A stretch of DNA of 64,000 bases from positions 1 to 64,000 of the forward strand of contig JAQTMZ010000013.1 in assembly GCA_028714075.1 (NCBI GenBank). Direction: 5' to 3'. Within the stretch, counting starts at the first letter, position 1, and each line of letters begins with the position of its first letter. Of this stretch, positions 25,030 to 57,779 are shown piece by piece. This DNA comes from Gallionella sp. (GTDB taxonomy: Bacteria; Pseudomonadota; Gammaproteobacteria; Burkholderiales; Gallionellaceae). The notes beneath the pieces were generated by a model. It searched no databases. It had not been told where the DNA came from and saw only the letters and a program-made list of their open reading frames with translations. A program made the position numbers and the translations under genes.

Positions 25030-25106
25030 GCGCCCGTAGCTCAGCTGGATAGAGTACTTGGCTACGAACCAAGGGGTCGGGCGTTCGAATCGCTCCGGGC
25101 GCACCA
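25030..25106 (+). tRNA. tRNA-Arg(ACG)
   Basis: This 77-nt cloverleaf has acceptor strand GCGCCCG paired with CGGGCGC, discriminator A and an encoded CCA end. The anticodon stem CTTGG/CCAAG encloses the loop CTACGAA, so the anticodon is ACG, and the T-arm contains TTCGAAT. Its 3' half is repeated at 57726-57776, which marks it as the integration site of the island. Confidence 0.97.
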
Positions 25107-25112
25107 GTAACT
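25062..25112 (+). repeat. Left attachment repeat (attL) in tRNA-Arg
   Basis: This 51-bp sequence from the anticodon loop to six bases beyond the CCA end is identical to 57726-57776. The pair flanks 32.6 kb of accessory sequence. A 3'-tRNA direct repeat is the classic footprint of tyrosine-recombinase integration. Confidence 0.93.
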
Positions 25113-25124
25113 TAGTTGTAAATC

Positions 25125-25161
25125 AATCGCTTAGCGTAATATTGCTAGGCGATTTTTCTTT
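25125..25161 (+). terminator. Terminator after tRNA-Arg, supplied by the island
   Basis: The stem AATCGCTTAGC/GCTAGGCGATT (one G-U pair) is followed by TTTTTCTTTT. It differs from the hairpin after the right repeat (57780-57817), so the element seems to have brought its own terminator for the tRNA. Confidence 0.8.
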
Positions 25162-25381
25162 TCAGTAAAGTCATTGCCGGACTTTTGCCGGACTTTCCCC
25201 GGCAAACACGGTTGGCCGCTTCAAGCAACTCATCGATTTCAGGCGCAGAATAGTGCGATGTGATATCACCATTCTTATGCCCCAGCAGAACCTTCCGTGT
25301 TTCCAGTGGAACGCCTGCTGCCCTGAGTCGCCTGCCAAACGTGTGCTTCAGATCATGAACTCTGACTATTGGCAAACCCAA
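25145..25381 (-). pseudogene. C-terminal remnant of a tyrosine integrase
   Basis: The 78 codons read as the C-terminal catalytic part of a phage-type integrase: VHDLKHTFGRRLRAAGVPL, then VLLGHKNGDITSHYSAPE with the tyrosine nucleophile in SHYS. The HxxR-type box has K where R is usual, a variant also seen in related integrases. The N-terminal two thirds and any credible start are missing, and unrelated sequence is joined at about 25380. It sits next to attL and points toward the tRNA, as expected for the integrase of the element. The island probably cannot mobilise itself. Confidence 0.85.
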
Positions 25382-25535
25382 GTATGATCGACTCCATGAA
25401 TTGCCTTAATTCATCGGTAGTCACAATCCCACACTGACTTTCACGCAGCAATTCAGACGGGATGATCTTGCCAGAGGCCATATACATGTTTATCGCAGCC
25501 TTGACCGGCGGCGTTATTGCGAGTCCTTTAATCAT
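25353..25535 (-). CDS. Small phage-like chimeric ORF
   Basis: This 60-aa frame has a good ribosome site (GGAAGGAG) and begins MIKGLAITPPV. That is the opening of a conserved phage/plasmid protein whose usual continuation is absent here. The remaining residues are unfamiliar. It overlaps the integrase remnant, which suggests that a deletion joined two genes. Its function is unknown and it may not make a working protein. Confidence 0.4.
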   Translation of the reverse strand: MIKGLAITPPVKAAINMYMASGKIIPSELLRESQCGIVTTDELRQFMESIILGFANSQSS

Positions 25536-25558
25536 CTCAATTCTCCTTCCCTCAAAAT

Positions 25559-25807
25559 TCAGCCAATAAAAAGCCCCCGCCAATTTCTTGACGGGGGCGC
25601 AGCACTGCAACTACGTTTTATTACTTGCCGACCTGCACTAAAAACCGCCGAGTGCCAAGCTTGGGGGATTTTATACAGTTTTACCCACTCTGGATTTTCC
25701 TCACTCAGCCGCTTGAAGTCCGTCGTGGTGGAATCCTTCGATTTGTGCCAACTGATTCTGGCATCAGCCAGCACCGCACTACTGGCAAACCCAAGCCGTT
25801 CCTGCAA
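25559..25807 (-). pseudogene. Degraded element gene fragment
   Basis: An 82-codon frame lies between the truncated ligase-like gene and the phage-like fragment. It has no clear start or ribosome site, and I do not recognise the product. Its position among truncated genes suggests a leftover of the element's original left arm. Confidence 0.3.
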
Positions 25808-25843
25808 TTGCTGCTTGAGCAGTTCTTCTTGTACTTCGCTGCT

Positions 25844-26305
25844 TCACGTCGCTGCCGGTATGACCAGTAGCCCCTTGCGGTTCATCCCCGTCACGCTACC
25901 GGCAACGGCATGTGCGGCATGCCGTTCACCGTCCATCTTCTCCTGAGCGGCCCAGCGATCATCCTCGACTAGGCGCATGGCCTCATCTTCGGTGATGGGA
26001 TTGAGCAATTGCGGGGTGAAGTCGGTTTTGAGACCGGCATTCTCCGTACCTTGGTAAGCGGCACCGGACACGCCGGGCGTATAGCCTTTGGAAGTTTTTT
26101 CTTTTACGAGCTTGTCGTAGATTTTCTTGGCCTGTGCGAAATCGACCGGCTCAGATGTCTTGGTGCCGGCAGTCAGTGAAGGCCCTCGGCGGCCATACCG
26201 GAAATTGACGACGTTGCCATCTGCGACTGAAACGATTTCGGCGTGGTATTCCTTGTCGCTGCTGCCTTCGGAATAGTACAAGCTGGTTCTTGCGATTGCG
26301 TTCAT
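25844..26305 (-). pseudogene. Truncated WGR-domain / ATP-dependent DNA ligase-like protein
   Basis: This 153-aa protein starts with a WGR domain (YYSEGSSDKEYHAEIV, NFRYGRRGPSLTAGTKT, ending near residue 75). It continues into the start of an adenylation domain (QLLNPITEDEAMRLVEDDRWAAQEKMDGER) whose KMDG is the ligase-type lysine motif. Family members continue for several hundred residues; here the frame ends shortly after GMNRKGLLV. WGR domains bind DNA ends or nucleic acid. It is interpreted as a truncated, probably inactive gene of the island's left arm. Confidence 0.65.
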
Positions 26306-26572
26306 GAATTTCTCCTGAATAGAAAAGCCCACGCCGTCAGGGACGGAACGTGGACTTGGGTTTTAATATCGGGTTAAATTTGAATTGAAAATGAAGGCGT
26401 TAATATGCTGGTTGAGAACAGAACTTTCCCGTTCTCCTATTTGTAATATATGGGTGAAAAATTCTAGGTTACGGTTTATGACGGCATAAAAAACAGGGAT
26501 TTTCCCTGCTCTTTAGTTCTGTTGTGTGGGGTTTGCTTACGGAAGATGGGAGGCACGGGGTAGAATTGCATC

Positions 26573-26752
26573 ATGCATAATTACTACGCCAAACAATCCC
26601 AAACAGGCACCGAAGTTAAGGTGCATGCTTTCAAATCGATGCATGAGCGCGATGCTTGGGTGAAAGAGAACTACGATGCATTAAATGCAAGGCAATGTTC
26701 TGCAGTAGAAGCGAAGCAACTTGCCAAGCCTGAAGATTTTATCGAGCACTAA
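26573..26752 (+). CDS. Small hypothetical protein, 59 aa
   Basis: This short open frame runs from ATG 26573 to TAA 26752, with a purine-rich GGGAGGCACGGGG stretch upstream. The protein begins MHNYYAKQSQTGTEVKVHAF and contains SMHERDAWVKENYDALNAR. This resembles small plasmid- or phage-borne proteins of unknown function, but I cannot name a family. It is oppositely oriented to the truncated ligase-like gene. Confidence 0.45.
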   Translation: MHNYYAKQSQTGTEVKVHAFKSMHERDAWVKENYDALNARQCSAVEAKQLAKPEDFIEH

Positions 26753-26816: not shown

Positions 26817-27172
26817 TGTTGTTCGCCAGCAACTGCAATGTGCTGCCAATAGCAGAACTTGAAGTCCTGACTTCAACTACAAATCCGACAAAGGCCTATC
26901 GGCAAGCTTATCGTCGCGAAGACGTAATTGCCCAATTACCTCAAGTAACGAATTATCCAAAACGAGTAATGCCGATACAGGCAATGCTTGCAAAGCCTCG
27001 GGCAATATACCTTCCGCTGGGCCGGGTGCGTTTTTTAACAGCTTTAAAGCTTCTTCACTGACTTGCAATCCAACTCGCCGTTGATCTTCTTTGCTGCGCT
27101 CTTTGTTTATCAAGCCGCGAGCCACAAGCTTCTCAACCAGCTGACTTCCGGTGGACTGGTGTATAGATAAGC
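26817..27172. repeat. Left copy of the direct repeat flanking the nxr block
   Basis: This 356-bp segment, covering the 3' part of a MarR gene and 60 bp beyond its stop, matches 36468-36823 with about five mismatches and no gaps (offset 9,651 bp). Beyond 27172 the two copies fall abruptly to roughly 75-80% identity. Confidence 0.93.
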
Positions 27173-27356
27173 GTTCTGCCAGCTCAGAAACTCCTATGCC
27201 GGGAGTTTTGGTCACTTCTTGCAATATCCACATCTGCGATCCGGAAATGCCGCAGGTTTGTTCAACTTCGCGAAATTGCTGGCGAACCGAACCATAAATG
27301 ATGCGGAATTTTTTGAGTACTTGAAGCGAAAATTGATTTTTGGTGCGTTTTTTCAA
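26877..27356 (-). CDS. MarR-family transcriptional regulator (left copy)
   Basis: This 159-aa winged-helix regulator has QVLKKFRIIYGSVRQQFREVE, the recognition region LAERLSIHQSTGSQLVEKLVARGLINKERS, and a wing with DQRRVGLQVSEEALKLL. Family members are usually dimeric repressors that respond to small ligands. The start used is a TTG at 27356 without a strong ribosome site, weaker than that of the right-hand paralogue. The C-terminal two thirds is nearly identical to the protein at 36528-37007, while the N terminus differs. It reads away from nxrA and could control the nxr promoter region, but this is inference. Confidence 0.8.
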   Translation of the reverse strand: MKKRTKNQFSLQVLKKFRIIYGSVRQQFREVEQTCGISGSQMWILQEVTKTPGIGVSELAERLSIHQSTGSQLVEKLVARGLINKERSKEDQRRVGLQVSEEALKLLKNAPGPAEGILPEALQALPVSALLVLDNSLLEVIGQLRLRDDKLADRPLSDL

Positions 27357-31990: not shown

Positions 31991-33133
31991 ATGGCAACAG
32001 TTAAAAACTGGCAACTAGACAGGGAGATGGAATATCCCTACGAAGGCAACAGGCCAAAGCGGCAAATCACCATGTTCTTCGACTTGAACAAGTGCATTGC
32101 ATGCCAAACCTGCACCATGGCCTGCAAGACAACCTGGACTTCGGGCAAGGGACAGGAAGCGGTGTTCTGGAACAACGTGGAATCGAAGCCATACGGCTTC
32201 TATCCGCTGGCCTGGGACGTGAAGGTGCTCGATCTGCTGGGCTCTCAGCCTTGGTCCGGTTCTGTCTACAAAGGCAAGACCATATTCGAAGATGTTTCGT
32301 TCGATGAAAAGGTCAGGGGCTATCTCCCCGACGAAATGGACTATACCAGCCCGAACCTGGGCGAGGACGAGGCCAGCCAAATCCAGACCACCGAAGGCGA
32401 CTATATCAAGGGTCCGGTACACAAGAGCTGGGGATTCTACCTGCCGCGTATCTGCAACCATTGCACCTATCCGGGATGTCTCGCCGCTTGTCCCCGGAAA
32501 GCGATTTACAAGAGGCAGGATGACGGTATCGTTCTGATCGACCAGTCCAAGTGCCGCGGCTACCGTGAGTGCGTGAAGGCTTGCCCGTACAAGAAGGCGT
32601 TCTACAACAACACCACCCGTGTATCGGAGAAGTGCATCTCCTGCTATCCGAAGATCGAAGCGGGCGAAATGTCGCAGTGCGTGACCAACTGTATCGGCAG
32701 AATCCGTATTCAGGCTTTCAAGACAACTGATCTGACCAAGATCAGGAAGAATAATGTGGCTGATTTCCTGATTCATGTACGCAAGATCGCGCTGCCGCTG
32801 TATCCGCAATTTGGCACCGAGCCGAACAATTACTACATTCCGCCCATTCACGTCGATCCGGCCTATCTGACCCAGATGTTCGGCCCGGGCGTCGAGAATG
32901 CGATCAAGCAGTACCGGAATGCAGGCAAGGACAAGGAATTGCTCGCGGCATTGATTCTGTTCGGCAATACCGAGAAGATCAGCGACACATTCAAATATGA
33001 CGCAAAAACCGACGAAGCCGTTTCCTACGATGAGAAGGGAAAGGAAATTGTCAGGGTTCCGTGCACCGAGCCTATCTATATCAGGAAGGTCTTGAACGCG
33101 AAGTCCGGTGCCTTTCTTACTAACAATACGTAA
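31991..33133 (+). CDS. nxrB: Nitrite oxidoreductase-like iron-sulfur subunit NxrB
   Basis: This 380-aa electron-transfer subunit has four cysteine clusters: CIACQTCTMAC near residues 35-45, CNHCTYPGCLAACP near 155-168, CRGYRECVKACP near 188-199, and CISCYPKIEAGEMSQCVTNC near 216-235. The arrangement is that of the NarH/NxrB/DmsB-type beta subunits, carrying three [4Fe-4S] and one [3Fe-4S] or [4Fe-4S]. It has no signal peptide, consistent with export by hitch-hiking on the Tat signal of NxrA. It lies 88 bp after nxrA and 13 bp before nxrC, with an AAGGGA ribosome site. Confidence 0.88.
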   Translation: MATVKNWQLDREMEYPYEGNRPKRQITMFFDLNKCIACQTCTMACKTTWTSGKGQEAVFWNNVESKPYGFYPLAWDVKVLDLLGSQPWSGSVYKGKTIFEDVSFDEKVRGYLPDEMDYTSPNLGEDEASQIQTTEGDYIKGPVHKSWGFYLPRICNHCTYPGCLAACPRKAIYKRQDDGIVLIDQSKCRGYRECVKACPYKKAFYNNTTRVSEKCISCYPKIEAGEMSQCVTNCIGRIRIQAFKTTDLTKIRKNNVADFLIHVRKIALPLYPQFGTEPNNYYIPPIHVDPAYLTQMFGPGVENAIKQYRNAGKDKELLAALILFGNTEKISDTFKYDAKTDEAVSYDEKGKEIVRVPCTEPIYIRKVLNAKSGAFLTNNT

Positions 33134-33146: not shown

Positions 33147-34106
33147 ATGAAAAAGATATTTGTTGGAATAGCAGCACTGTGTTTGGCGGCTTCGTTTGCC
33201 TCTCCTGTCTTTGCCGACGACGATAAGATCGAAATCAGGTCAAAGGCAGTAACCGGCGCGGTACCGCTGGATCCGAACAGCCCTGTCTGGAAAGACGTGA
33301 AGCACCTGATGGTTGGAATGGTTCCGCAGAACTTGGTCGCACCGGGTTTGGCCGAAGGTTCGGTTTCCAACGTGAAGGTTAAGTCGGTTCACAACGGCAA
33401 GGAAATCGCGTATTTGCTGGAGTGGTATGACGCAACTGAAGACGACACGGAAACCATGATGGACAAGTTTTCCGATGCGGCTGCCTTGATGTTCCCGGTA
33501 AAGCAGAAGACGGAGCCGTCGTTCATGATGGGTGATGCGGACAATCCCGTCCAGATCCTTTATTGGAAAGCGGCTTGGCAGAAGGATATCGACAAGGGCT
33601 ACCAGGACGTGAGGGACGCATACCCCAACTATAACTACGACGCTTACCCGATGGTCGATACCATGACCGATGCAAAGGGTAACAAAATTGTAGTTAGGGA
33701 TAACGAAATCTACAAGCCAGTAGATCCGCAAGACCGCGCAATCAATACGCCGATAGGCAAGTATAGCGATGCTGCAAAGGGCTATTTGCCGGGCTTGGCG
33801 GTAAAGAACCCCAGATCCAAGATCGACAGGACAACGCCGGTTGAGGAACTGAATGCAGTGGGTTTCGGTACACTGACTACCCAGGCGGACAGCAAGGCCA
33901 ACGGCAAGGGTGTCAGGAGCTTCGGCTACTGGAAGGTGGTTATCACCCATCCGTTGAAGGCTGAATATACCGGCCAAGATGCGGACTTGACAGCAGGTGA
34001 CCACTTCATCACCGCTATCGCGATATGGGATGGTTCCAAGAAGAACCGCGCCGGGCGCAAGAACTTCTCGAACGGCGGCTGGATCTCGTTATACATGGAA
34101 AAATAG
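33147..34106 (+). CDS. nxrC: Nitrite oxidoreductase-like heme-b gamma subunit NxrC
   Basis: This 319-aa secreted protein has a Sec signal (MKKIFVGIAALCLAASFASPVFA) and an ethylbenzene-dehydrogenase-gamma-like heme-binding fold. The segment FMMGDADNPVQILYWKA carries the methionine region, and a C-terminal lysine-rich part is expected to carry the second heme ligand. In the family this subunit passes electrons to a periplasmic cytochrome. The start at 33147 was chosen for the signal peptide and the GGGGGGAG ribosome site; the frame extends upstream but would overlap nxrB. A strong terminator follows. There is no membrane NarI-like subunit, supporting a soluble periplasmic complex. Confidence 0.85.
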   Translation: MKKIFVGIAALCLAASFASPVFADDDKIEIRSKAVTGAVPLDPNSPVWKDVKHLMVGMVPQNLVAPGLAEGSVSNVKVKSVHNGKEIAYLLEWYDATEDDTETMMDKFSDAAALMFPVKQKTEPSFMMGDADNPVQILYWKAAWQKDIDKGYQDVRDAYPNYNYDAYPMVDTMTDAKGNKIVVRDNEIYKPVDPQDRAINTPIGKYSDAAKGYLPGLAVKNPRSKIDRTTPVEELNAVGFGTLTTQADSKANGKGVRSFGYWKVVITHPLKAEYTGQDADLTAGDHFITAIAIWDGSKKNRAGRKNFSNGGWISLYMEK

Positions 34107-34331: not shown

Positions 34332-36158
34332 ATGTTAAATTTCACCCACACAATTTTACAAAGACCTATAAATAAAGCGCTTCCATATGCTGTATTTGAG
34401 CAGGATGGTTTGACCATACCCTCCCCCCGTTTTTTGCCGATGAGGCAGTCTGCTTTTAAAACATTATCCGGCGATACAAAACTAGCCAACTTGCTCGGCA
34501 ATGACGTAAGCAATATCTTATGCGCCGCATCCGAAGGCCGACCCTCAATGTTTTTTATGGATGTTGAATTTATCCATGAAATGGAAGCCATTAAAGCGTC
34601 TGCAAAAGAAAGTGGTGACAGAAGCTGTGAAGCGTTGGCTATTGCCTCGTTGACACTTTATAGACTTACCAAAAATAGAACTGCTTTTTCCAGCGCAATA
34701 AAAAAGTGGGCTGGCATGATTGATCGCGATGCAATCATGAGGAACCTCCCTTACATAAGAAAAACGAATGAGGATTTGGTATCTCATATTCATTCGATAT
34801 CACAATGGCGATCACTGAAACAAGGCCCTGAAGCAGTTAGAAAATTTGCTCAAAAACGGATTGATCTTGCTGAACGTATGAAAGCAATTATTCCCAAGGA
34901 AGCTTCTGCATGGGCAATATCGCAGATTACCAACGGGGACTTGAATTCATACTTGCCTGAAATTATAAAAACACGCAATCTTTATTATGTTGCCGCAGTA
35001 ATTTCAGATGGCAATATATTATTTCTGCCAGCACTTGCGGAAAAAATAGCACAGATGGACGACATGGAGTTATGGACGGAAGAGCATCTCATTAATGCAT
35101 TAATTGAGTTTAAAGAAATCCGCTCGCTTTTGACTGATGAATTATATCGTGTGATATTTTCTATCTATGCGACATCGGCAACATCATTATGGACGTTCAT
35201 TGACCAGCATGAACCAATTGAAAACTCTGTACCAAGCAAACTTGACCTGCTTCCCGGAGTAGTCAGCGTCGGCGATTGCGAGGATGACGAATGTCAGCAT
35301 GACCAGCAAATCTCTGGTAATTTTGATCTTGACTGGATGTTCTCAATGGTCGGTAGCGCTGTTTGCGAATCGAAGGCATGGGGAGAGTTTGCGCCTTTCA
35401 TCAAGACTATCTTCGACATGGACAGCGAAGCACGATTCAAGCTGCTGGGGGAAATGAGCAGTGCCAATGCTGTTGTATGGCGTGCCGGGCAAGAGTTGAT
35501 TGAAGAACTCCGCCTGAAAGAAATTACATTAAAAAATGCTCGCAAGGAGAAAAAACAGGCCGCGAAAGACATGGAACACGCCAAAGTGCAAATTGCAAAC
35601 TTGAACCGTCAAGTCGGCGAAATGCGTAAGGCTCGCACAAAACCTGGATCGAAGCCAGTTTCGGTAGACATGTCGCTATTTGAAGAAGAATTGAAACTGT
35701 CCAGAAAAACCAACGATCAGGTGCGTGACGAGCTTGGTAAAAAAGAAGCCGAGCTAAAGCAGGTTTACGAGTTGCTTGACTCCGTGTTGTCATCACAGCA
35801 CGAAGATGGCAGTCATGTACCCGTCAAACTATCACCATCTGAATTGATCGAAAAACGCGGCATCGTGATAGGGGGGCATTACACCCTTATTGCGAAACTG
35901 AGAAAGGAACTTACGAACTGCCAATTCTATTCGCCAGACGCGAAATCACTTGATGACGATGCCGTCAGGAATTGCGAATATATACTGTTCTTCACCGGAT
36001 ACGTAAATCACTGCCTGACCGGTCATGCACTGCGTTTGTCGCGCTTATACAACATTCCCTGCGGCTACACGCATAGAACAAATGTGACACTTGTTTTGAA
36101 TGACATTGAGGCGATATTTGCTGGGAGTGTTTTATCCCCAGTGGCTGCAGTCTGTTAG
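34332..36158 (+). CDS. DUF2325 domain protein with coiled coil
   Basis: This 608-aa protein has a C-terminal DUF2325 domain (about residues 515-600: RGIVIGGHYTLIAKLRKEL, then YILFFTGYVNHCLTGHALRLSRLYNIPCGYTHRTN). A charged coiled coil (about 385-480) precedes it, and the first 380 residues form a helical region I cannot assign. DUF2325 proteins are of unknown function and often occur on mobile elements. It sits after the nxr terminator, so it is probably transcribed separately. It is the only other gene between the two MarR repeats. Codon use is more AT-rich than in the nxr genes. Confidence 0.7.
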   Translation: MLNFTHTILQRPINKALPYAVFEQDGLTIPSPRFLPMRQSAFKTLSGDTKLANLLGNDVSNILCAASEGRPSMFFMDVEFIHEMEAIKASAKESGDRSCEALAIASLTLYRLTKNRTAFSSAIKKWAGMIDRDAIMRNLPYIRKTNEDLVSHIHSISQWRSLKQGPEAVRKFAQKRIDLAERMKAIIPKEASAWAISQITNGDLNSYLPEIIKTRNLYYVAAVISDGNILFLPALAEKIAQMDDMELWTEEHLINALIEFKEIRSLLTDELYRVIFSIYATSATSLWTFIDQHEPIENSVPSKLDLLPGVVSVGDCEDDECQHDQQISGNFDLDWMFSMVGSAVCESKAWGEFAPFIKTIFDMDSEARFKLLGEMSSANAVVWRAGQELIEELRLKEITLKNARKEKKQAAKDMEHAKVQIANLNRQVGEMRKARTKPGSKPVSVDMSLFEEELKLSRKTNDQVRDELGKKEAELKQVYELLDSVLSSQHEDGSHVPVKLSPSELIEKRGIVIGGHYTLIAKLRKELTNCQFYSPDAKSLDDDAVRNCEYILFFTGYVNHCLTGHALRLSRLYNIPCGYTHRTNVTLVLNDIEAIFAGSVLSPVAAVC

Positions 36159-37007: not shown

Positions 37008-37165
37008 TTGTTGCCCCCTTTGTATGGGTGAATACTGCTTTTTATTGGATTGTATCACTTGCAAATTACATTCACATCAATTATATTTACGTCAACCGAA
37101 TAGATCGGTATTGCGTCAATGATAGTGTCTCAATTGATTGCAAACTTATAAAAAGGATATTTATC

Positions 37166-37732: not shown

Positions 37733-37763
37733 CGGAAAATCTTACATTTAATAGGGGTTTCCT

Positions 37764-37928: not shown

Positions 37929-38022
37929 ATGGGTGATGCTTTCCGGTTGGATTGCCAGCAATCGAATGCAATAGGCGCATCTTGAAATATTAATCAGCAT
38001 AATGCCTTTGAAGAGATTAATC

Positions 38023-43835: not shown

Positions 43836-43849
43836 GAAAGGAATGCGTC

Positions 43850-49290: not shown

Positions 49291-50284
49291 GCTCGAAAAG
49301 TATCCAAGTGTTAAGTACATACAGCATAAACAACCCCAGGCTTACCCAGGTAAGCCCGAGCACAATGCGACCCTGCGGGCGGTAGATGAAACCTACGACC
49401 GCCAAGGCGCTCATCATCACTGCGGTGAGTGCGGTCAGCGCGTGGCTGGGCTCGACGTGCATAAGCAAGGAGCCACCGGTGTAAAACAAATCGTCTACCG
49501 CAAGAATGAGGATGTCGAACAGGTTGCTACCGAGCAGGTTGGCAATGGCCATATCAAGCGCACCGATGCGCATCGCCGCAATGGTGACAGCAGCCTCGGG
49601 GGCGGAGGTTACCGCCGCTACCAGCAGGGTTCCGACAAAACTTTGCCCCCATCCCATCAGTTCGGAAATATCCTTGGCGACAAACGGTAGCCAAGAACCC
49701 GCCAATACTATGGCTATTGCCGCCTGCACATATCCTTTGACGGCACTACGCAGTGTCACATCCAAATAACGTTCGGCGGACACCTCGGTGTATTCAGACA
49801 GGATACGGCGTTCATAGCTGTAAACAGCGCGCATTGCAACCAGATAGACCAGGACGATGAATGGCGTATATAACCCCACATGCCTCAACGCCGGACTCAT
49901 TCCCGCATGATCCAGCAGCAGGCTGAAACCGGCGAAGGCGATCAAAATCGTACCCAGCGAAGCCGACAGTATATGGCCCTGTGCCGCGCGGCTATACATG
50001 GACTCGCGCCGGTACAAAGCATCCAGCATCACCAGAATGGCAAGATTGAATACTGTACTGCCCAGCACATCGCCGACTGCAATATTCGGCACGTTAGCAA
50101 ACGTAACTGAAGTGATCCCGGTCACCAGTTCCGGCAGTGAAGTGGCGGTAGATAGCAGGATGAGGCCGACCCAAGAGATGGACATGCCGGTTTTTTCGGC
50201 AATGATGTCACTGTAGCGGGAGGCAAAGTAACCCGCGTAGCCGATGATGGCAAGACAAACCAGAAGTTGGAGCCAAAGCAGCAT
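49280..50284 (-). CDS. Sodium/calcium exchanger family protein
   Basis: This 334-aa CaCA-family antiporter has two alpha repeats. The first is LILLSTATSLPELVTGITSV with GDVLGSTVFNLAIL. The second is VAAVTSAPEAAVTIAAMR with ANLLGSNLFDILIL. Together they carry the two ion-binding acidic residues (in the PEL and PEA motifs). About ten membrane helices are present. It is the first gene of a two-gene operon with the P-type ATPase. The start at 50284 was chosen because of the GGGAG ribosome site. Confidence 0.9.
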   Translation of the reverse strand: MLLWLQLLVCLAIIGYAGYFASRYSDIIAEKTGMSISWVGLILLSTATSLPELVTGITSVTFANVPNIAVGDVLGSTVFNLAILVMLDALYRRESMYSRAAQGHILSASLGTILIAFAGFSLLLDHAGMSPALRHVGLYTPFIVLVYLVAMRAVYSYERRILSEYTEVSAERYLDVTLRSAVKGYVQAAIAIVLAGSWLPFVAKDISELMGWGQSFVGTLLVAAVTSAPEAAVTIAAMRIGALDMAIANLLGSNLFDILILAVDDLFYTGGSLLMHVEPSHALTALTAVMMSALAVVGFIYRPQGRIVLGLTWVSLGLFMLYVLNTWILFEHAH

Positions 50285-50468
50285 GTCAGCACTCCCGTAG
50301 TGATATAGAAGCAAACTGCAAAGCCATTTCTCACACCATTGTACAGTAGCCAGTTTGAGAGCCAGGTATAAGCTGTGCGTATCTTTTGTACGGTGTTGTC
50401 AATCTACAGTTGCTCATTGCTAGGCAGTTGTATAAGCTTTGCCGCAATAAACAACAGGAATCTGTTTT

Positions 50469-51860
50469 ATGGCTAAAGAAGGTGAACCTGATCGGTCGCT
50501 CGTTTCAAGAATTCAGGCAGCGCTGGCCTACCGGTTTAATTTGCACGCTGATCAATCCAGTTTTGACGAAATCGACCGGAATATTCGGGACAGCATTGAA
50601 ATCAAGGGAACCAATCTATGGGTGCTGATGCTGGCGATATTTATCGCCTCCATCGGATTGAATGTCAACTCTACTGCTGTCATCATCGGTGCAATGCTGA
50701 TTTCCCCGCTCATGGGGCCAATTATGGGCGTGGGCTATGGGGTGGGAATCAACGATTACTACCTGATCAGAAAGGCGCTCGGCAATCTGCTCGTCTCATT
50801 TTTGATCGGACTTTTTGCTTCCACGGTCTATTTCCTGCTCAGCCCATTATCTGTCGCACAATCCGAATTACTGGCGCGAACAGCACCAACCATTTGGGAT
50901 GTTTTGATCGCATTGTTTGGCGGATTGGCCGGAATTATTGCTTCAACGCGCAAAGAGAAATCAAATGTTATTCCGGGTGTGGCCATTGCGACGGCGTTGA
51001 TGCCGCCATTGTGTACTGCGGGCTATGGAATAGCCAATGGCTCACCGGAGATGTTCTTCGGTGCGCTTTATCTGTTCTTCATTAACTGTGTATTCATAGC
51101 ATTTGCCACCTTGTTACTGGTTGGCTACATCAATCCCCCGCACAAACGTTTTGTGAGTGAAGAGATGGAGCGCAAGGTGAAACGCTACATCTATACCGTG
51201 GTGCTGGTTACGATTTTGCCAAGTATTTATTTGGCATACGGCCTGGTCACACGAGAGGTATTCAGTTCAAGAGCCAGCGAATTTATTAAAAATGAGCTGG
51301 TATTCGAGAAGAGCTTTATTGCAAAGCAGCAAATTTCAGCAGACAAGCAGATAATCGATATCACACTGGTAGGGCAAAAAATCAGCGATGAGGATCTGGC
51401 GCAACTTTCCAGCAGGCTGGAACGCTACCGGTTGCGAAACGCCAAACTGGTCGTTCACCAAACCGTCATCAAGGAACTGGATGAGGCCACGCTGAAGAAA
51501 TCATTGCTTAATGAAATTTTAAACACCAATCAGGTGATATTCGATTCCAAAAACAAGCAGATACAGGATTTGCAAAATGAAATTTCCAATATGCGGGCAC
51601 AGCAAAACCAGCAAACCATGCGACTTGAGGAACAGCAAAAGATATATGAAGAACTTGTTGCGCAATACCCGCAGGTTCGGAAGCTGGCCATAGCAAAGAC
51701 GGATGAGCATCAGACGAGTCGTCTTGAAAAATCGACCGTATTATTAGCTAATCTCACATCGAAGAAAATATTATCGGGAGGTGATCGACGCAGGATTGCC
51801 GCCTGGTTTAAGGTCAGGGCTGGAGTAGATCAGGTAAAACTCACTGTAGAGGTTGATTAG
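50469..51860 (+). CDS. DUF389 family membrane protein
   Basis: This 463-aa protein has a DUF389 core of about six membrane helices (residues 50-250): NVNSTAVIIGAMLISPLMGPIMG, IASTRKEKSNVIPGVAIATALMPPLCTAGYG. A long C-terminal cytoplasmic part follows, with a coiled coil (about 360-410). The function of the family is not established. It lies divergently from the exchanger operon and directly upstream of a second cation/proton antiporter. Confidence 0.82.
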   Translation: MAKEGEPDRSLVSRIQAALAYRFNLHADQSSFDEIDRNIRDSIEIKGTNLWVLMLAIFIASIGLNVNSTAVIIGAMLISPLMGPIMGVGYGVGINDYYLIRKALGNLLVSFLIGLFASTVYFLLSPLSVAQSELLARTAPTIWDVLIALFGGLAGIIASTRKEKSNVIPGVAIATALMPPLCTAGYGIANGSPEMFFGALYLFFINCVFIAFATLLLVGYINPPHKRFVSEEMERKVKRYIYTVVLVTILPSIYLAYGLVTREVFSSRASEFIKNELVFEKSFIAKQQISADKQIIDITLVGQKISDEDLAQLSSRLERYRLRNAKLVVHQTVIKELDEATLKKSLLNEILNTNQVIFDSKNKQIQDLQNEISNMRAQQNQQTMRLEEQQKIYEELVAQYPQVRKLAIAKTDEHQTSRLEKSTVLLANLTSKKILSGGDRRRIAAWFKVRAGVDQVKLTVEVD

Positions 51861-51912
51861 TGAGGATGATATTGCGTGTTTTCCCATATCCTAAGAAGTA
51901 AGGGCACACCAA

Positions 51913-53292
51913 ATGATCATGACTTTATTAATAATTGCCGGGATTTTGTTTCTGGCATTGCAATTGGAAGATAAGCTCAAGGTTCCATCTCCGCTGAGTT
52001 TGATTACACTCTCATTTGTAGTCCATTATGGCTTTCAACAAGTTCCTGAGTTAACCGGAGATGCCACGCATTTTGCTATGCTTGTTATTTTTTTGCTGCC
52101 AATCCTGCTTATTTCAGATTCACTTGAAATCAAGGTGGGAGACCTTAAGGAGCATGGCTTCAGCCTGTTTTATTTGACTGTAGTGGCAGTAGCTTTGTCA
52201 GTGTTGACTGCGCTACTCATATCCAATTGGCTATTCGCCGACTATGCTCTTTCTAGCGCGGCTGTCATCGTGTTATTCACCATGGTACTGGCAACCGATC
52301 CGGTCTCCGTGGTTAGCATCTTCTCCAAGTTCGATTTGCCCCATCGGCTAAAAATACTTGCCGAGGGCGAGAGCCTGTTTAACGATGCCACTGCGCTGAT
52401 TGTCTTTGTCTTTGTCGGTCTTTATGCCTTGGGTGGTGGCGAAATCACCGCCCTTTATGTGGCCGAAATAAGCAGCGAAGTAGTGCTTGGTTCGGTAGCG
52501 GTTGGCGTGATGGTCGGCTTTGTCGGACTTGTAGCCATGAAGTCAACTGAAAATAGCATCGCTGAAATGATAGTTCTCATCATTACAGGCTATGGTGCAT
52601 TCGAAATGGCCGAGTATTTCTATATTTTGCTTAATTTGTTGGGAGCTCACACACACTCGCATCTGTCAGGCATTCTAGCTTGCATTTTTGCCACAATCAC
52701 AGTCAATCATGTGATGACCAAGGCAATAGCCGAGGATAACAAGCAGATTAATTACGACGAAGCCGAGCTTCAAGATGAAGCACAAAGTCGCGCTACATCC
52801 TTCGGCATTATCGGGAAGGTGTTGCATCGCATCAAGGCCACTCTTGAAGAACGGGATCGCCACCTGCGCACCAAGGAAGATATCCAGCTACTGGCGATGG
52901 TGGCCAATACCATCCTGTTCGTGGCTATGGCGGAAATGATCGATATCCATCTTTTGTGGAAATATAAAGTTGAGATTCTGGCGATGTTCCTGGCAACCAC
53001 GTTGATTCGTGGAGTGATGATTGCTCTGTTTGCCTGGATTGCCAACAAAACCGACAAGATGGTCGATATCAATTTTCGTTGGTGGAGCGTTCTGACATTT
53101 GCCGGCATCAAAGGCGGATTGTCTATTGTGATGCTCACCATGATTCCCGCTTCATTCGAATATCTGGAAATGTTCAAAGCTGTAGTGATCGGGATCATCA
53201 TGTTGTCTACTTTTGTTTATTCAGGCGCACTGCTGATCATTATTAGCAGCAATGCAGAACAATTTCTCGCAGAAAAGATTGATGAAAAATAA
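51913..53292 (+). CDS. CPA1/NhaP-type cation/proton antiporter
   Basis: This 459-aa antiporter has MVLATDPVSVVSIFSKFDLPHRLKILAEGESLFNDATALIVF, the NhaP/CPA1 signature with the ND pair, and RWWSVLTFAGIKGGLSIVML near the end. About 12 helices are present, with a hydrophilic loop around residues 285-325. It exports Na (or K/Ca) in exchange for protons. It lies 52 bp after the DUF389 gene and may share its transcript; the two may be functionally coupled. Confidence 0.88.
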   Translation: MIMTLLIIAGILFLALQLEDKLKVPSPLSLITLSFVVHYGFQQVPELTGDATHFAMLVIFLLPILLISDSLEIKVGDLKEHGFSLFYLTVVAVALSVLTALLISNWLFADYALSSAAVIVLFTMVLATDPVSVVSIFSKFDLPHRLKILAEGESLFNDATALIVFVFVGLYALGGGEITALYVAEISSEVVLGSVAVGVMVGFVGLVAMKSTENSIAEMIVLIITGYGAFEMAEYFYILLNLLGAHTHSHLSGILACIFATITVNHVMTKAIAEDNKQINYDEAELQDEAQSRATSFGIIGKVLHRIKATLEERDRHLRTKEDIQLLAMVANTILFVAMAEMIDIHLLWKYKVEILAMFLATTLIRGVMIALFAWIANKTDKMVDINFRWWSVLTFAGIKGGLSIVMLTMIPASFEYLEMFKAVVIGIIMLSTFVYSGALLIIISSNAEQFLAEKIDEK

Positions 53293-53317
53293 TATGTCTA
53301 TAATTTGGGCAGTAGCT

Positions 53318-53549
53318 ATGAAATACAGAATATTGCTTGACGCTACACAGGACGACTGTCCGGTTGCTATAATTAAAATAAAAGAAATGCTCGATAAAAT
53401 AGAGGTTGGCGCAGTCCTGAAAGTTGTCACAAGCAAGCAAGGAAGGAACAATTAATAACATACGAACATTTGTGAAAAACAACCCCTATGAATTGGTGCG
53501 CGAAACCAATGACAAGGAACGCTTTTACTTCTATGTCAAAAAGCTGTGA
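53318..53549 (+). pseudogene. TusA-like sulfur carrier gene with frameshift
   Basis: The first frame (MKYRILLDATQDDCPVAIIKIKEML, then AVLKVVTSKQG) is a TusA-family protein with the conserved CP motif. After the codons for SKQG, the bases AGGAAGGA form a tandem 4-bp duplication and the frame stops at once. Removing one AGGA restores the frame into INNIRTFVKNNPYELVRE and on to KKL-stop at 53549, the usual TusA C terminus. This is either a recent loss, a sequencing error or a slippage site. It follows the antiporter by 25 bp. Confidence 0.75.
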
Positions 53550-53668
53550 CTTTGATGCGAATGGCACTCAGCCCGACAGGCCAGCAATACTTTTGACTGC
53601 TAACAGAATTCAAATTCATTGGTATGCGTAGCGAACAAAATTATTTTCTTAGAAAACCAGGAGCGGCC

Positions 53669-54010
53669 ATGCAACCTTACAAAAAAATGTTATTTATCGG
53701 CGCTGCAGTGTTATTGATTGCTGGGTTGGTTGGATGCGCCAGCAGGGATCTGATCGGGGTGCGTAAAGGATCTGATCGAGTTTTTCAAGTAGAGGCAAGT
53801 CAGGTTGGCGGCTGTCAGTCCAAGGGAGAAATTAATGTTAGCGTCCTTGCTATAGTTGGATTTATAACTCGCAGTCCTGAAGCCGTGGAAGCTGATTTGT
53901 TACAGTTGGCACGCAATGGTGCGATAGATGCTGGCGGCGATACAGTCGTGAAGGGTAATTCGCCAGAATATGGGAAGCGCACTTTTACAATTTACAAATG
54001 CAAGCAGTAA
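53669..54010 (+). CDS. DUF4156-type lipoprotein
   Basis: This 113-aa predicted lipoprotein has a hydrophobic signal (MLFIGAAVLLIAGLVGC, starting at residue 7) with a cysteine at the lipobox. The mature part runs VGGCQSKGEINVSVL to NGAIDAGGDTVVKGNS, and this arrangement matches DUF4156 family proteins of unknown function. The start at 53669 is one option; an in-frame ATG further upstream exists at 53624. Confidence 0.7.
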   Translation: MQPYKKMLFIGAAVLLIAGLVGCASRDLIGVRKGSDRVFQVEASQVGGCQSKGEINVSVLAIVGFITRSPEAVEADLLQLARNGAIDAGGDTVVKGNSPEYGKRTFTIYKCKQ

Positions 54011-54351: not shown

Positions 54352-54912
54352 ATGAACATCTGCATAAACTACGCACATGGCGACAAAGAGTTCGTCGATC
54401 AATTGGCAATTCGATTATGTCGTGAAATTGATTGCGGCATTATGCTATGGGAGATGCCGACGGGCGACTCGCTTATTGAGAAAGACAAAGATAATTCTGT
54501 CGAGATTGATGCCATTATTATCGTTTTATCTAAAGAATCAGCCGCGTCGGACTGGTGTCAGAAAAAGCTGTCTGAAGGGCTTCTGCACAAAATTGAAGAC
54601 AATGGTACAGCCGTAATTCATCTCCTGATTGAGGATTGCGATCTGCCTGACTTTGCGCAAAGTGCGCCTGTTACAGATTTCCGTAATTGCTCTATTAATG
54701 ACATGAGTCGCATTGCCCAATTAGTCGTATGGACTTCGACGTGGAGGAAGGAAATAAGCGACTACAGGAACCAAGAATTGCAAAGCGGCAAAAGCCCAGA
54801 TGATTGCCAAATCAAAAGAATTAAACTGCCATTTAAAAGGCAGCGGATCGGGTCAGGTAACGCCATGCACCCGTTGGATATATTGTGGCGCAAAATGTTC
54901 TTGAGTCGATGA
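54352..54912 (+). CDS. TIR-domain protein with altered catalytic position
   Basis: This 186-aa protein has an N-terminal TIR fold: ICINYAHGDKEFVDQLAIRL, a WEMPTGDSLIEK loop, IDAIIIVLSKESAASDWCQKKLSEGL, and a C-terminal DFRN strand. Bacterial TIR proteins often hydrolyse NAD in defence or act as signalling modules. The catalytic glutamate normally found in WxxxE (WVQKEL-like) is a lysine here (WCQKKL), with a glutamate three residues further on, so NADase activity is uncertain. No partner sensor gene is adjacent. The last 60 residues are unassigned. Confidence 0.72.
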   Translation: MNICINYAHGDKEFVDQLAIRLCREIDCGIMLWEMPTGDSLIEKDKDNSVEIDAIIIVLSKESAASDWCQKKLSEGLLHKIEDNGTAVIHLLIEDCDLPDFAQSAPVTDFRNCSINDMSRIAQLVVWTSTWRKEISDYRNQELQSGKSPDDCQIKRIKLPFKRQRIGSGNAMHPLDILWRKMFLSR

Positions 54913-55028
54913 TACCAACGTAAATGCGGGCGGCATATTTGACTGAGCAATACACAGAGCTTTCCGTGGCTAGCAATATCTAGGCACTTTCTTTTATATC
55001 TCACTCGCTTACTTGGTGAAAATTAAAA

Positions 55029-55412
55029 ATGCTAAAACCTAACACCGACTCAAACAAGAACCTTGAGCAGCCCTCGCCTGATCACCTACGCAGTCTTGCC
55101 GAATTACAAGCCGCAGAGGATTTGCTATTCCACCAAGTCTGGTTCAACCGGAACAAGCACCGTCTCAGTTCTATCCAGGATGGAGGTGTCATGGTCGTGG
55201 ATTTGGATAACTTTCCCAAACGACTACAAGCGATGAGCCCAGTTGAGCGCGACATTTTGAAACGCACGATGCAAACTGCGCGCGACGCCGTACAGCGCTA
55301 CGGCAAAGAAAGCTTTGGGCCTTGGACTGATTTTGAATGGGGGGCGATCAGCGGCAAGCTCTCGGCAATCCGTTGGATGCTCGGCGATGAGTGGGACGTA
55401 CTGGATACGTAA
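55029..55412 (+). CDS. Hypothetical protein, 127 aa
   Basis: This predicted soluble, mostly helical protein has no signal peptide or membrane helix. Phrases include LAELQAAEDLLFHQVWFNR and GPWTDFEWGAISGKLSAIRWMLGDEWD. I do not recognise the family. It lies 10 bp upstream of another small hypothetical gene with a strong ribosome site, so the two probably form an operon in the island's right arm. Confidence 0.65.
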   Translation: MLKPNTDSNKNLEQPSPDHLRSLAELQAAEDLLFHQVWFNRNKHRLSSIQDGGVMVVDLDNFPKRLQAMSPVERDILKRTMQTARDAVQRYGKESFGPWTDFEWGAISGKLSAIRWMLGDEWDVLDT

Positions 55413-55422
55413 GGGAGGTGGA

Positions 55423-55770
55423 ATGGATACCGATAAATCTCTGGAAATAATTCAAGCCTTGGCCAATGGTGTTGATCCGCACACTGGGGAGGAATATTCT
55501 TCAGACAGTCCGTATCAGCACCCGCAAACAGTGCGAGCGCTGTTTGCGGCAATAGAGGCAATGGATAGATTAAAAGAGCGCGCCAAGAAAGCTGAAGACC
55601 GACAAAAACGCCTTCCAGGCAATGCTGGAAAAGCTTGGGCAGAGGAAGAAGATCAACGATTAGTTAAAGCTTTCGACTTGGGCAAAACGGTTCAACAACT
55701 CGCTGCCGATCACGAAAGAACAGATTATTCCATCTGCGCACGGTTAGTTAAGCACGGCAAGATACAGTAA
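55423..55770 (+). CDS. Hypothetical HTH-like protein, 115 aa
   Basis: The protein begins MDTDKSLEIIQALANGVDP and has TGEEYSSDSPYQHPQTVRALFAAIEAM. After a basic middle comes NAGKAWAEEEDQRLVKAFDLGKTVQQLAADHERT, a helix-turn-helix-like tail. It resembles small proteins found next to helicases or in mobile regions, with no established role. The start at 55423 has a GGGAGG ribosome site. Confidence 0.7.
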   Translation: MDTDKSLEIIQALANGVDPHTGEEYSSDSPYQHPQTVRALFAAIEAMDRLKERAKKAEDRQKRLPGNAGKAWAEEEDQRLVKAFDLGKTVQQLAADHERTDYSICARLVKHGKIQ

Positions 55771-55896
55771 TGGCTGGTTATGGGGTAGTCGGTGTGCAGG
55801 GTAACGTCATACAGGGCTTTGAATAACAGGTTGGCAAAGTGCTAAACTCCATGCTTGCTGCAAAGGGCAGCGACAAAATTACAGGGAGATAATCAA

Positions 55897-56181
55897 ATGA
55901 ACCGCAAAGAACTGATTGATGCACTGGCAGCAAAAACCGACTGCACCAAAGCTTGTGCTGACCGCACCCTCGCAGCACTGATTGAAGTTATTACCGCCAC
56001 CCTCAAGAAAGGTGACAACATTGCACTGGTCGGCTTCGGCACATTTGAGGTACGCAAGCGTGCCGCACGTAATGGTCGCAATCCATCTACTGGAGCTGCG
56101 ATTAAAATCAAGGCATCCAAGGCTCCGGCATTTAAGGCTGGTGCAAATCTCAAGGCTGCTGTGAACGGCGGCAAGAAATAA
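55897..56181 (+). CDS. HU-family DNA-binding protein
   Basis: This 94-aa histone-like protein has MNRKELIDALAAKTDCTKA, NIALVGFGTFEVRKRAARNGRNPSTGAAIKI and the C-terminal FKAGANLKAAV, the full HU fold with the proline-tipped DNA-binding arm (GRNPSTG). Its position in the island's right arm beside an IHF-like gene suggests element-encoded nucleoid proteins. The start at 55897 has an AGGGAG ribosome site. Confidence 0.92.
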   Translation: MNRKELIDALAAKTDCTKACADRTLAALIEVITATLKKGDNIALVGFGTFEVRKRAARNGRNPSTGAAIKIKASKAPAFKAGANLKAAVNGGKK

Positions 56182-56231
56182 GTATTCCAAATAGCAACCA
56201 TCAGGGTGTCTTGGTGGTTGCACAATGACCC

Positions 56232-56492
56232 ATGCCTACAAATCAAATTCTGCAATACCTGAAAAAGCATGGTGAGCGGCTCGATACTGAGATTGCTGAA
56301 GCTACAGGCATAAAACTTGCCGCTGTCCGCATTCAATTGTCAGAACTGGCTGCAAAGGGCGAAGTTATGATGTGTCAGTCGATTCTGTTTATTAAGGGCA
56401 AGAAGGTCGAGAGAACAGTCTGTCGAATAGCTGGCTATATCCCACCAGCATCACCGGGTAGAAAATCTAAGGCTCAGTTGAAACTGTCGTAA
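56232..56492 (+). CDS. Small winged-helix regulator-like protein
   Basis: This 86-aa protein is read as a winged helix: QILQYLKKHGERLDTEIAEATGI, then KLAAVRIQLSELAAKGEVMMCQ, with a basic strand after it. Its role is not known; it is of the kind found in phage and island regulation. It lies 50 bp after the HU gene and 59 bp before the IHF-like gene, all on the plus strand. Confidence 0.65.
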   Translation: MPTNQILQYLKKHGERLDTEIAEATGIKLAAVRIQLSELAAKGEVMMCQSILFIKGKKVERTVCRIAGYIPPASPGRKSKAQLKLS

Positions 56493-56551
56493 TCTCGCAC
56501 TGACATGCGATAAAATGTAGCGCAGCAATACTTATTAACAGCAATTGAAAA

Positions 56552-56830
56552 ATGACTCGCGCCGAACTAATTGAACGCCTTGCTCAGCTACACCCCCAAC
56601 TCCAACAGAAAGACGCCGAGCTTACCGTGAAGGCGATTCTGGACGCGCTGTCCAATGCATTGGCAAAGGGCGGTCGTGTCGAGGTGCGTGGCTTTGGTTG
56701 CTTTAGTTTGAATTACAGACCTGCACGGCAAGGGCGTAATCCCAAGACTGGCGCAAAGGTGAAAGTGCCAGCCAAGTATGTGCCGCATTTCAAGGCGGGT
56801 AAGGGACTGCGTGAACGTGTTGACTGTTAA
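56552..56830 (+). CDS. IHF/HU-family protein (IhfB-like)
   Basis: This 92-aa DNA-bending protein has [53 protein letters not shown] and [15 protein letters not shown], as in the beta subunit of IHF. IHF is often needed by tyrosine recombinases at att sites, so an island copy would make sense in that role; this is inference. It is the last plus-strand gene before the toxin-antitoxin pair. Confidence 0.88.
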
Positions 56831-56854
56831 GACTGACGGGGCTGTTGAAAATCG

Positions 56855-57130
56855 TTACACCAATTCGATTTGTACCTTACGACCGACCAAGGCAGCAGCA
56901 CGTTGCAAAGTTGATAGCGTCACATCGCGGGTAGGATCAAGCAGTCGATCGACCTGCGAGCGGCTGGTCTTAAGCATGATGGCCAAGCGTGCCTTAGTTA
57001 GCGATTGTTTTTCCATCGCTTCGGTAAGTTGCCACACCACGACTTCCTTGATGGCCATTGCTTGAGTTTCTTCAAATATTCCCTCTTCCTTGAGAAAGTC
57101 GTCGAGGCTTGATCCGATATGTTTACTCAT
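56855..57130 (-). CDS. HigA-like antitoxin (XRE family)
   Basis: This 91-aa protein has a helix-turn-helix domain: SLTKARLAIMLKTSRSQVDRLLDP, then TLQRAAALVGRKVQIELV. It follows the toxin-first order typical of HigBA, and its start overlaps the toxin stop by four bases. It would bind the operator at 57493-57516 and neutralise the toxin. Confidence 0.82.
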   Translation of the reverse strand: MSKHIGSSLDDFLKEEGIFEETQAMAIKEVVVWQLTEAMEKQSLTKARLAIMLKTSRSQVDRLLDPTRDVTLSTLQRAAALVGRKVQIELV

Positions 57131-57477
57131 GATTTCAACTCCTTTTGGCGTTTCCTCGCCAAGGTAAGATCGTCGTCAGGTGTCTTTTGCGTCTTCTTGA
57201 CGAAGGCGTGCAAGGCCACCAAATTGCCCTTGTGCAAACATATCAGCACACGAGCGATGCGGTTGTTTGGCAAGTCTGTGCGTACTTCCCATAAACCCTG
57301 CCCCATCGGGCGGCATAAGGGCATACCCACCGGCCAGCGCCATTGCGCCCGCATCAGGTCTTGGCCAATTGTGTGCCGGTCTGGCTCGTCCTGTGCCTTG
57401 AGCCATTCGCGCACTGGTTCGTTGCCGCTGTTGTTTTTGTAGAACTGTAGCGGCGTTTTTTGCGATTCATTGACCAT
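57127..57477 (-). CDS. HigB/Gp49-like toxin
   Basis: This 116-aa protein of the phage-derived Gp49/HigB (RelE superfamily) group has QFYKNNSGNEPVREWLKAQ, RWPVGMPLCRPMGQGLWEVRTDLPNNRIARVLI and HAFVKKTQKTPDDDLTLARKRQ. The family cleaves mRNA at the ribosome. It is encoded upstream of its antitoxin, near attR, and may stabilise the island against loss. Confidence 0.85.
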   Translation of the reverse strand: MVNESQKTPLQFYKNNSGNEPVREWLKAQDEPDRHTIGQDLMRAQWRWPVGMPLCRPMGQGLWEVRTDLPNNRIARVLICLHKGNLVALHAFVKKTQKTPDDDLTLARKRQKELKS

Positions 57478-57492
57478 TTATCACCTTAGTGC

Positions 57493-57516
57493 ATTTGTAC
57501 CATATAAGGTACAAAT
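57493..57516 (-). promoter_or_regulatory. Palindromic operator of the higBA-like pair
   Basis: The perfect 9-bp inverted repeat ATTTGTACC-ATATAA-GGTACAAAT lies 16-39 bp upstream of the toxin start. It is the expected position and shape of an autoregulatory toxin-antitoxin operator. Confidence 0.75.
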
Positions 57517-57611
57517 AATGCAAGACAATTTTGCGAGTATAGATATCCTGACCTTATCAATGAAATTCTGGGTTAGTGTCACGCTCATGAAAATATATGG
57601 GTGAATTTTTC

Positions 57612-57634
57612 TTGCCGGACTTTTGCCGGACTTT
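57612..57634. repeat. Integrase-tail repeat near attR
   Basis: The 23-bp TTGCCGGACTTTTGCCGGAC... sequence is identical to 25174-25196, which codes for the last residues of the left integrase remnant. It is a second copy of the integrase end inside the right junction. The following GTTATGCATCGTTATGCGC is itself repetitive. Confidence 0.8.
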
Positions 57635-57725
57635 GTTATGCATCGTTATGCGCTGTTGTGCATGGTTGTAACGGAAGACCTCAGCGCGGGTTAATAAAAT
57701 CAATATGTTACATCTGATAGCTATT

Positions 57726-57776
57726 CTACGAACCAAGGGGTCGGGCGTTCGAATCGCTCCGGGCGCACCAGTAACT
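57726..57776 (+). repeat. Right attachment repeat (attR)
   Basis: This is an exact 51-bp copy of the 3' half of tRNA-Arg (25062-25112). It is preceded by unrelated sequence, so it is not a second tRNA. It marks the right boundary of the island. Confidence 0.93.
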
Positions 57777-57779
57777 AAA

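Follow-up and report, generated by a model that had tools for sequence, protein, structure and literature searches.

The closest described counterparts of the nitrite oxidoreductase (NXR) genes considered here are those of Candidatus Nitrotoga. Two nxr loci were reported in N. fabula, and in the cited part of that paper the molybdenum (Mo) site of the Nitrotoga enzyme has the motif Y-4x-D-11x-QM, and the origin of this NXR type, evolved in Nitrotoga or transferred, is left open (Kitzinger 2018, PMC6050957). According to the cited part of a survey of 103 Gallionellaceae genomes, nxrAB is exclusive to Ca. Nitrotoga, and the family is split into iron oxidizers and Nitrotoga nitrite oxidizers (Hoover 2023, PMC10734462). 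Here we describe a 64,000-nucleotide stretch of a Gallionella sp. genome (the window), which carries an nxrABC-like operon inside a genomic island at a tRNA-Arg gene. The locus is a real but decayed tRNA-Arg island holding one of three nxr operons, sister to those of Nitrotoga, in a genus other than Nitrotoga.

The window comprises bases 1–64,000 of contig C13 (73,733 bases) of genome G000 (2.83 Mb, 27 contigs, completeness 100%, contamination 2.25%). Labels with G, L and C denote related genomes, fetched stretches and contigs, respectively, and g1 and g9 denote genera. Searches at the genus level covered 76 genomes of g1, G000 among them, and nxrA was surveyed in 150 genomes of the family, 399 genomes of the order and genome contigs. 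Island proteins were scanned with Pfam and NCBIfam profiles, with some small open reading frames outside the scan. The label "iron oxidizer" is given to the host for its genus.

The island is bordered on both sides by a direct repeat of the tRNA 3ʹ end (Table 1). The 51-bp core consists of the last 45 bases of tRNA-Arg(ACG) plus 6 more and is exact in both copies, as the original prediction stated; a chance repeat is excluded because any other ungapped alignment of the 51-mer within the window agrees at 28/51 positions at most. This gene is the sole tRNA found in the window, and the other full-length matches to it in G000 have only 71–82% identity. The integrase remnant claimed beside the left copy was also observed, on the minus strand and spread over more than one frame. 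It is a broken C-terminal piece, with roughly the first 290 residues unmatched at the site. An intact integrase of the island's own type was sought elsewhere in G000 and not found, the best candidate being a 48% relative on C5. Two features go beyond the original prediction: an exact 23-bp repeat near both ends, whose copies look like integrase arm sites from their position, and a 542-bp repeat of 92% identity containing MarR-type genes, which flanks the nxr cassette.

Both ends of the island were matched by a smaller element. In G125, an element of about 5 kb (L099, G125 C71, 6778–11830) occupies the same tRNA-Arg, with an intact 409-aa integrase adjoining the intact tRNA and its own second core repeat 5 kb from the first; the compact element with its two core copies spans 6746–11830 of L099. 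The left end of the island is 81% identical to it over 378 bp, and the right end is 79% identical over 165 bp, 45 bp of core included. Core repeat, remnant and matching ends together support the proposed insertion at tRNA-Arg by a tyrosine-integrase element. The GC content of the island is 49.9%, compared with a mean of 56.5% (s.d. 2.6) in 81 host segments of 4 kb taken from stretches of G000. The predicted difference between GC-rich host and cargo thus holds overall and not throughout, since nxrABC has 54.0% GC and the segments between 44 and 50 kb are host-like in composition.

The tRNA-Arg locus was read in 10 relatives, which are part of the tRNA-Arg places found in relatives, and the downstream hairpin was aligned in nine of them (all except G086). 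At eight of the 10 loci, the exceptions being G125 and G086, tRNA-Arg continues directly into the hairpin type found here after the right repeat. The best match of this flank was in G102, with 94.7% identity over 95 bp from 57726, core included; beyond approximately 100 bp, the site is too variable for comparison. The original prediction had proposed a search for an intact tRNA-Arg followed by the sequence after 57777. That arrangement was recovered over these 95 bp, and the check fails at the gene level because the relatives' sites are differently occupied. The hairpin follows the tRNA in most relatives read, and it may equally be the native tRNA terminator or part of a second element. The 134 bp from 57726 to 57858, core included, are 88.8% identical to L095 (G144), where the last 60 bp of the match are the end of a 375-aa integrase gene. 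When translated and compared by eye, the minus strand after the right core resembles the C-terminus of this integrase, and tblastn with the G144 integrase gave no match after the right repeat. The right core border is not certainly the true chromosomal border, and a second element may be stacked there. In L095 (G144 C63, 3287–3646), two cores lie 283 bp apart and enclose a run of N, with the 375-aa integrase past the second.

Genes downstream of tRNA-Arg mostly differ among the relatives read, with G144 and G139 sharing an integrase family. Eight downstream proteins were scanned, of which four were phage-type integrases, one was a resolvase and one had an integrase arm-binding domain only. The tRNA-Arg site thus looks like a crowded hotspot with stacked elements. 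G086 has tRNA-Arg(ACG) twice in tandem, with a serine recombinase downstream (L103, 10058–11880). When the right flank (57726–64000) was compared with the 76 genus genomes, long matches were found in G125, G144, G149 and G130, none of them beside tRNA-Arg in the stretches examined; the other right-flank matches listed mostly cover part of a large PAS-GGDEF gene. No second genome with the island occurred among the matches listed.

On the left side, proS leads into tRNA-Arg on C13 of G000. Among the relatives, tRNA-Arg is preceded by tRNA-Ser(GCT) in 9/10 and by an aspartokinase of lysC type (assigned by clustering) in 8/10, not by proS. The lysC and tRNA-Ser genes of G000 lie on C7 at 160.5–161.9 kb and lead into the genes beyond proS of G125 and G143. 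Both junctions were directly visible (G000 C7:160496–171237 and window 22773–25106), and one inversion with breakpoints between tRNA-Ser and tRNA-Arg and between proS and its next gene explains the two together. C13 and C7 belong to one genome because they share the reciprocal junctions of this inversion, and contamination as the source of the window contig was rejected on these grounds; this linkage covers C13 and C7, not C12 and C9. An empty site anchored on proS was not found, and tRNA-Arg does not stand beside proS in the relatives read. That test fails because proS adjoins tRNA-Arg only through the inversion.

The nxrABC-like operon predicted inside the island (28381–34106) was supported, subject to the nxrB join discussed below. 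NxrA matches Kuenenia NxrA (7b04) from residue 8 to 1171 of 1173 (E 4.4e-237). NxrB and NxrC resemble the iron-sulfur and heme-b families of type II dimethyl sulfoxide (DMSO) reductases below NCBIfam cut-offs, and they exceed the Pfam cut-offs for Fer4_11 and EB_dh, respectively. Near-full-length nxrA was present in 14/150 family genomes, namely G000, G004 (the sole genome of its genus available for comparison) and 12 of genus g9; the remaining family matches listed were short, with identities up to about 40%. At E 1e-100 or better, nine of the 399 order genomes matched (G000, one g9 and seven outside the family with 37–50%), and genome contigs yielded four loci in three metagenome-assembled genomes (MAGs) with 81–87% identity. 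In a midpoint-rooted NxrA tree, the three G000 copies, REEB275, a Ferrovaceae-labeled MAG and STA_88 form a clade (98/98) that is sister to g9, and this clade and g9 group together with 100/100. Judged from these relationships, the operon is of genuine nxrABC type, in a sister clade of the g9 enzyme, and we infer nitrite oxidation as its function. Genus g9 is probably Nitrotoga, as judged from the Mo-site motif.

The Mo site of the window NxrA reads Y-4x-D-11x-QC; C12 likewise has QC and C9 has QT, and across the clade the residue at the M position is C, T or N. It is therefore conceivable, if unlikely, that the enzyme is a nitrate reductase or another oxidoreductase of the type II DMSO reductase family rather than a nitrite oxidase, as the residue after Q is C and not the M published for Nitrotoga, and nitrate reductases fall within the wider clade in the cited part of the Nitrotoga study (PMC6050957). 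However, the closest known relatives are the g9 enzymes (66–67% identity), 10 of the 11 read showing the published Nitrotoga motif and the eleventh having QQ, and the match to the anammox NxrA is nearly full-length. Close carriers of nxrA outside chromosomes were also sought and rejected: one of 72,556 plasmid records matched at E 1e-50 (Natronococcus, 44%), one of 50,697 phage records at E 1e-20 (24% over 43% of the query), and of four candidate stretches on viral contigs none was a relative. The Natronococcus occultus plasmid (NC_019976.1:115169–118351) encodes a 44% identical NxrA/NarG-type protein.

Three copies of nxrA were found in G000, one on C13 in the window and two outside the island, at C12:75557 (NxrA 89%) and C9:29744 (NxrA 87%). 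Upstream of the C12 gene lie pgk-pyk-fba, genes for a histidine kinase and a response regulator, and one for a homologue of the 608-aa protein that follows nxrC in the window, and kinase and regulator genes likewise stand ahead of nxrA in G004. At the C9 locus, nxrABC is accompanied by genes for a NarJ-type chaperone, a ferredoxin-like protein and an Mrp-type ATPase, and L007 likewise has chaperone and Mrp homologues after its nxrABC. Neither gene setting surrounds the window copy, and no chaperone gene was detected in the window by tblastn. The 608-aa protein, with a DUF2325 match below cut-off, is found beside nxr in two G000 loci (the second at C12:73335–75164).

Several observations weigh against the island as described above. 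A certainly empty tRNA-Arg site was not identified, most of the loci read looking occupied. The block beyond proS is oppositely oriented in G130 and G062, so the proS neighborhood has been rearranged more than once. A second purC on C21 is 90.8% identical to that on C8, within 2.9 kb of collinear matches at 82–87% DNA identity, which suggests that the bin holds a little sequence from a second species; of this pair (L169 and L170), C21 is possibly the contig from another species. As for nxrB, the 815 bp at positions 32153–32967 recur without a mismatch in C9, and contig C12 breaks off after a stretch of 127 bp that C13, C9 and C12 share exactly. The gene occurs in three places, one of them cut by the contig end of C12, and three left partners of the nxr loci stand against two right partners. 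Because one right partner is missing, the join of attL-nxrA to nxrC-attR could be wrong. The exact overlaps fit a short-read assembly with k=127, in which the nxrB join would have been guessed or bridged by read pairs.

An assembly chimera, with the left half (tRNA-Arg, integrase remnant and nxrA) and the right half (nxrC to attR) misjoined within nxrB, would account for the 815-bp repeat, the overlap at the contig end and the missing partner. However, the two halves carry the two borders of one tRNA-Arg insertion, and a MarR copy stands on each side of the cassette, the first 300 bp of the repeats being 98–99% identical. Moreover, the sole exact repeat of at least 100 bp within the window, direct or inverted, measures 126 bp and is shared by the two MarR repeats, and the 127-mers common to the window and about 0.23 Mb of the rest of G000 are confined to nxrB. 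Since both borders of one tRNA-Arg insertion flank it, the drawn join is most likely correct, albeit not proven, and we regard a chimera as quite improbable.

The original prediction described a discrete mobile unit that could convert a host into a nitrite oxidizer, and this was overstated. Two full-length nxrA copies lie outside the island; the chaperone gene is on C9 and was not found in the window by tblastn; the integrase is broken; and among the scanned island proteins there is no relaxase or conjugation family, that is, none of the relaxase and mating-pair genes of an integrative and conjugative element. Osmolyte synthesis, ion exchangers, the P-type pump and the OmpA/DUF3014 module have counterparts elsewhere in the genus, and the matches listed include no further genome carrying the island. 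That such an island brought nitrite oxidation to the lineage, with C9 and C12 as later copies, is very unlikely: its ends are still recognizable and G000 alone has full-length nxrA among the listed genus-g1 genomes, but the C9 copy falls outside the group formed by the window copy, C12 and two further MAGs, L007 and L008 (97/99), C12 shares the order histidine kinase-response regulator-nxrA with G004, C9 shares the order nxrABC-chaperone and the Mrp-type gene with L007, the window copy has neither, and the integrase is broken. Because C9 branches outside and the settings differ, the island copy is not evidently the one from which the others came.

The rest of the island consists of accessory and element-type genes (Table 1). 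The two direct MarR repeats flank the nxr cassette (27359–36467), and a single MarR gene stands before OmpA in three of the five loci read (G094, G056 and G124); in G143 no MarR was seen, and the G155 stretch starts at OmpA. MarR copy 2 and OmpA thus look like the native order and the nxr cassette like an insertion accompanied by MarR duplication, a mechanism that we infer. The operon at 39637–45061 looks from its gene families like one for compatible-solute synthesis, and it is collinear over 5 kb in G108 (84%), G134, G083, G096 and others. The P-type pump and its neighbor also occur in G108, G110, G092 and G116, and DUF389 beside an Na+/H+ exchanger in G124 and G052. These modules are found in the relatives on separate contigs or in other orders. 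Matches of 37028–57000 in 75 of the 76 genus genomes (G000 included) were rejected as a sign of shared cargo, many being the 0.3-kb HU gene near 55.9 kb. Because of these HU-family matches, shared cargo is claimed for the named longer modules.

The element-type genes predicted beside the right copy were partly recovered: HU and IHF-beta were confirmed and HigBA is plausible, because a weak HTH_37 match adjoins a HigB/Gp49-type protein, while a separate winged-helix (wHTH) gene was not confirmed. Homologues of the outer genes were located for WGR on C7 and in G074, for TIR, two small proteins and IHF-beta on C5, and for TIR in G074. The C5 stretch (L168, G000 C5:75001–95000) contains TIR, small proteins, IHF-beta and an apparently intact 375-aa integrase and is homologous to the right end of the island. 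As a whole, the island resembles a small integrative element that encloses an accessory-gene block known in the genus.

Table 1. Positions of the tRNA-Arg island, its borders and its genes in the window
Feature	Position	Strand	Remark
Inversion junction	24480..25029	.	Homology of the proS region ends at about 24480–24552; homology of relatives resumes at about 24991–25030, at or just before the tRNA
tRNA-Arg(ACG), integration target	25030..25106	+	No other near-identical full copy in the genome
Left 51-bp core repeat (attL)	25062..25112	+	Exact repeat
Tyrosine integrase remnant, broken	25143..25511	-	About residues 290–408 of the 409-aa G125 integrase
Arm-site-like repeat, two 11-bp units, left	25174..25196	+	Exact 23-bp repeat
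WGR-domain protein, truncated relative of a 331-aa C7 protein	25844..26332	-	
MarR-type regulator, copy 1	26877..27356	-	Inside 542-bp repeat 26817–27358
nxrA, molybdopterin subunit, 1173 aa	28381..31902	+	Twin-arginine signal, by eye
nxrB, iron-sulfur subunit	31991..33133	+	32153–32967 exactly repeated in the C9 copy
nxrC, EB_dh/heme-b-type gamma subunit	33147..34106	+	Hydrophobic N-terminus, no other strongly hydrophobic stretch
608-aa protein, no clear family	34332..36158	+	79.5% identical homologue before nxrA on C12
MarR-type regulator, copy 2, beside OmpA as in three relatives	36528..37064	-	Inside repeat 36468–37009
OmpA-type protein and DUF3014 protein	37028..38814	+	Gene pair also in relatives
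Compatible-solute-type operon: mannosyl-3-phosphoglycerate phosphatase-like/glycerate kinase fusion, glycosyltransferase, mechanosensitive-channel-type protein, 403-aa protein without known family	39637..45061	+	
Na+/H+ exchanger family	45308..46546	-	
P-type cation ATPase and Na+/Ca2+ exchanger-family protein	46645..50314	-	
DUF389, second Na+/H+ exchanger, DUF4156	50469..54010	+	
Element-type module: TIR protein, small proteins, HU, IHF-beta, helix-turn-helix (HTH), HigB-type toxin	54352..57477	.	
HU-family protein	55855..56181		
IHF-beta	56552..56830		NCBIfam 141.8 bits, cut-off 115
HTH protein	56855..57130	-	Weak HTH_37 match below cut-off
HigB/Gp49-type toxin	57127..57477	-	
Arm-site-like repeat, right, identical to left	57612..57634	+	Exact 23-bp repeat
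Right 51-bp core repeat (attR)	57726..57776	+	Exact repeat
Terminator-like hairpin, then probable C-terminal remnant of a second integrase (G144 type)	57777..57858	-	

Taken together, the locus may have arisen in the following order. In a Gallionellaceae genome, a P4-like tyrosine-integrase element would have entered the tRNA-Arg(ACG) gene at its 3ʹ end, keeping the tRNA whole at the left and leaving a partial copy at the right. The integrase would then have decayed, and the element would now be fixed or movable only with help. The element presumably became a shell around approximately 27 kb, which include salt, pH and envelope genes of types that other members of the genus also have. These 27 kb also include the nxrABC cassette, which sits between two MarR gene copies and is predicted to encode a periplasmic nitrite oxidoreductase of the sister clade to the Nitrotoga type. 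As the island copy is one of three nxr loci, it would more likely add to nxr copy number or offer another mode of regulation than bring in the trait.

Among titles and abstract openings, mainly of open-access papers and with preprints outside the search, none described a Gallionella that carries nxr, or nxr genes located on a tRNA island. A sister clade in another genus, with three loci and one of them in an integration hotspot, offers material for the question of NXR origin, where this NXR type would be either older than Nitrotoga or transferred from one genus to another; it also points to MAGs that could be tested for nitrite oxidation. A further step, which we advance only tentatively, is that these genomes represent a second nitrite-oxidizing Gallionellaceae lineage within an iron-oxidizer genus, with three sister-clade NXR copies, at least one of which moved on a tRNA-Arg element, and that the trait itself moves.

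The island is ordinary in kind, and the presence of the enzyme in this host is the interesting part. Like P4-type tRNA islands, it has a tRNA target, a direct repeat of the tRNA 3ʹ end, an integrase directed towards the tRNA, paired repeats close to each end and apparent tandem accretion; unlike them, its integrase is decayed and much of its cargo belongs to types that also occur elsewhere in the genus. Both ends are homologous to those of the G125 element, with the same integrase family, whereas that element measures about 5 kb, has an intact integrase and carries no nxr. The host belongs to the same family as the Gallionellaceae iron oxidizers of Hoover 2023 and differs from them in having three nxrA in a non-Nitrotoga genus. 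As in Ca. Nitrotoga, the gene order is nxrABC, NxrA has a twin-arginine (Tat)-type signal (by eye), NxrC is strongly hydrophobic only at the N-terminus, and the genome holds several nxr copies, two single-contig g9 genomes having three nxrA each. Unlike in Ca. Nitrotoga, no chaperone gene was found by tblastn beside the window copy; its NxrA is only 66–67% identical, the Mo site reads QC, QT or MN versus QM, and one copy lies inside a tRNA-Arg island.

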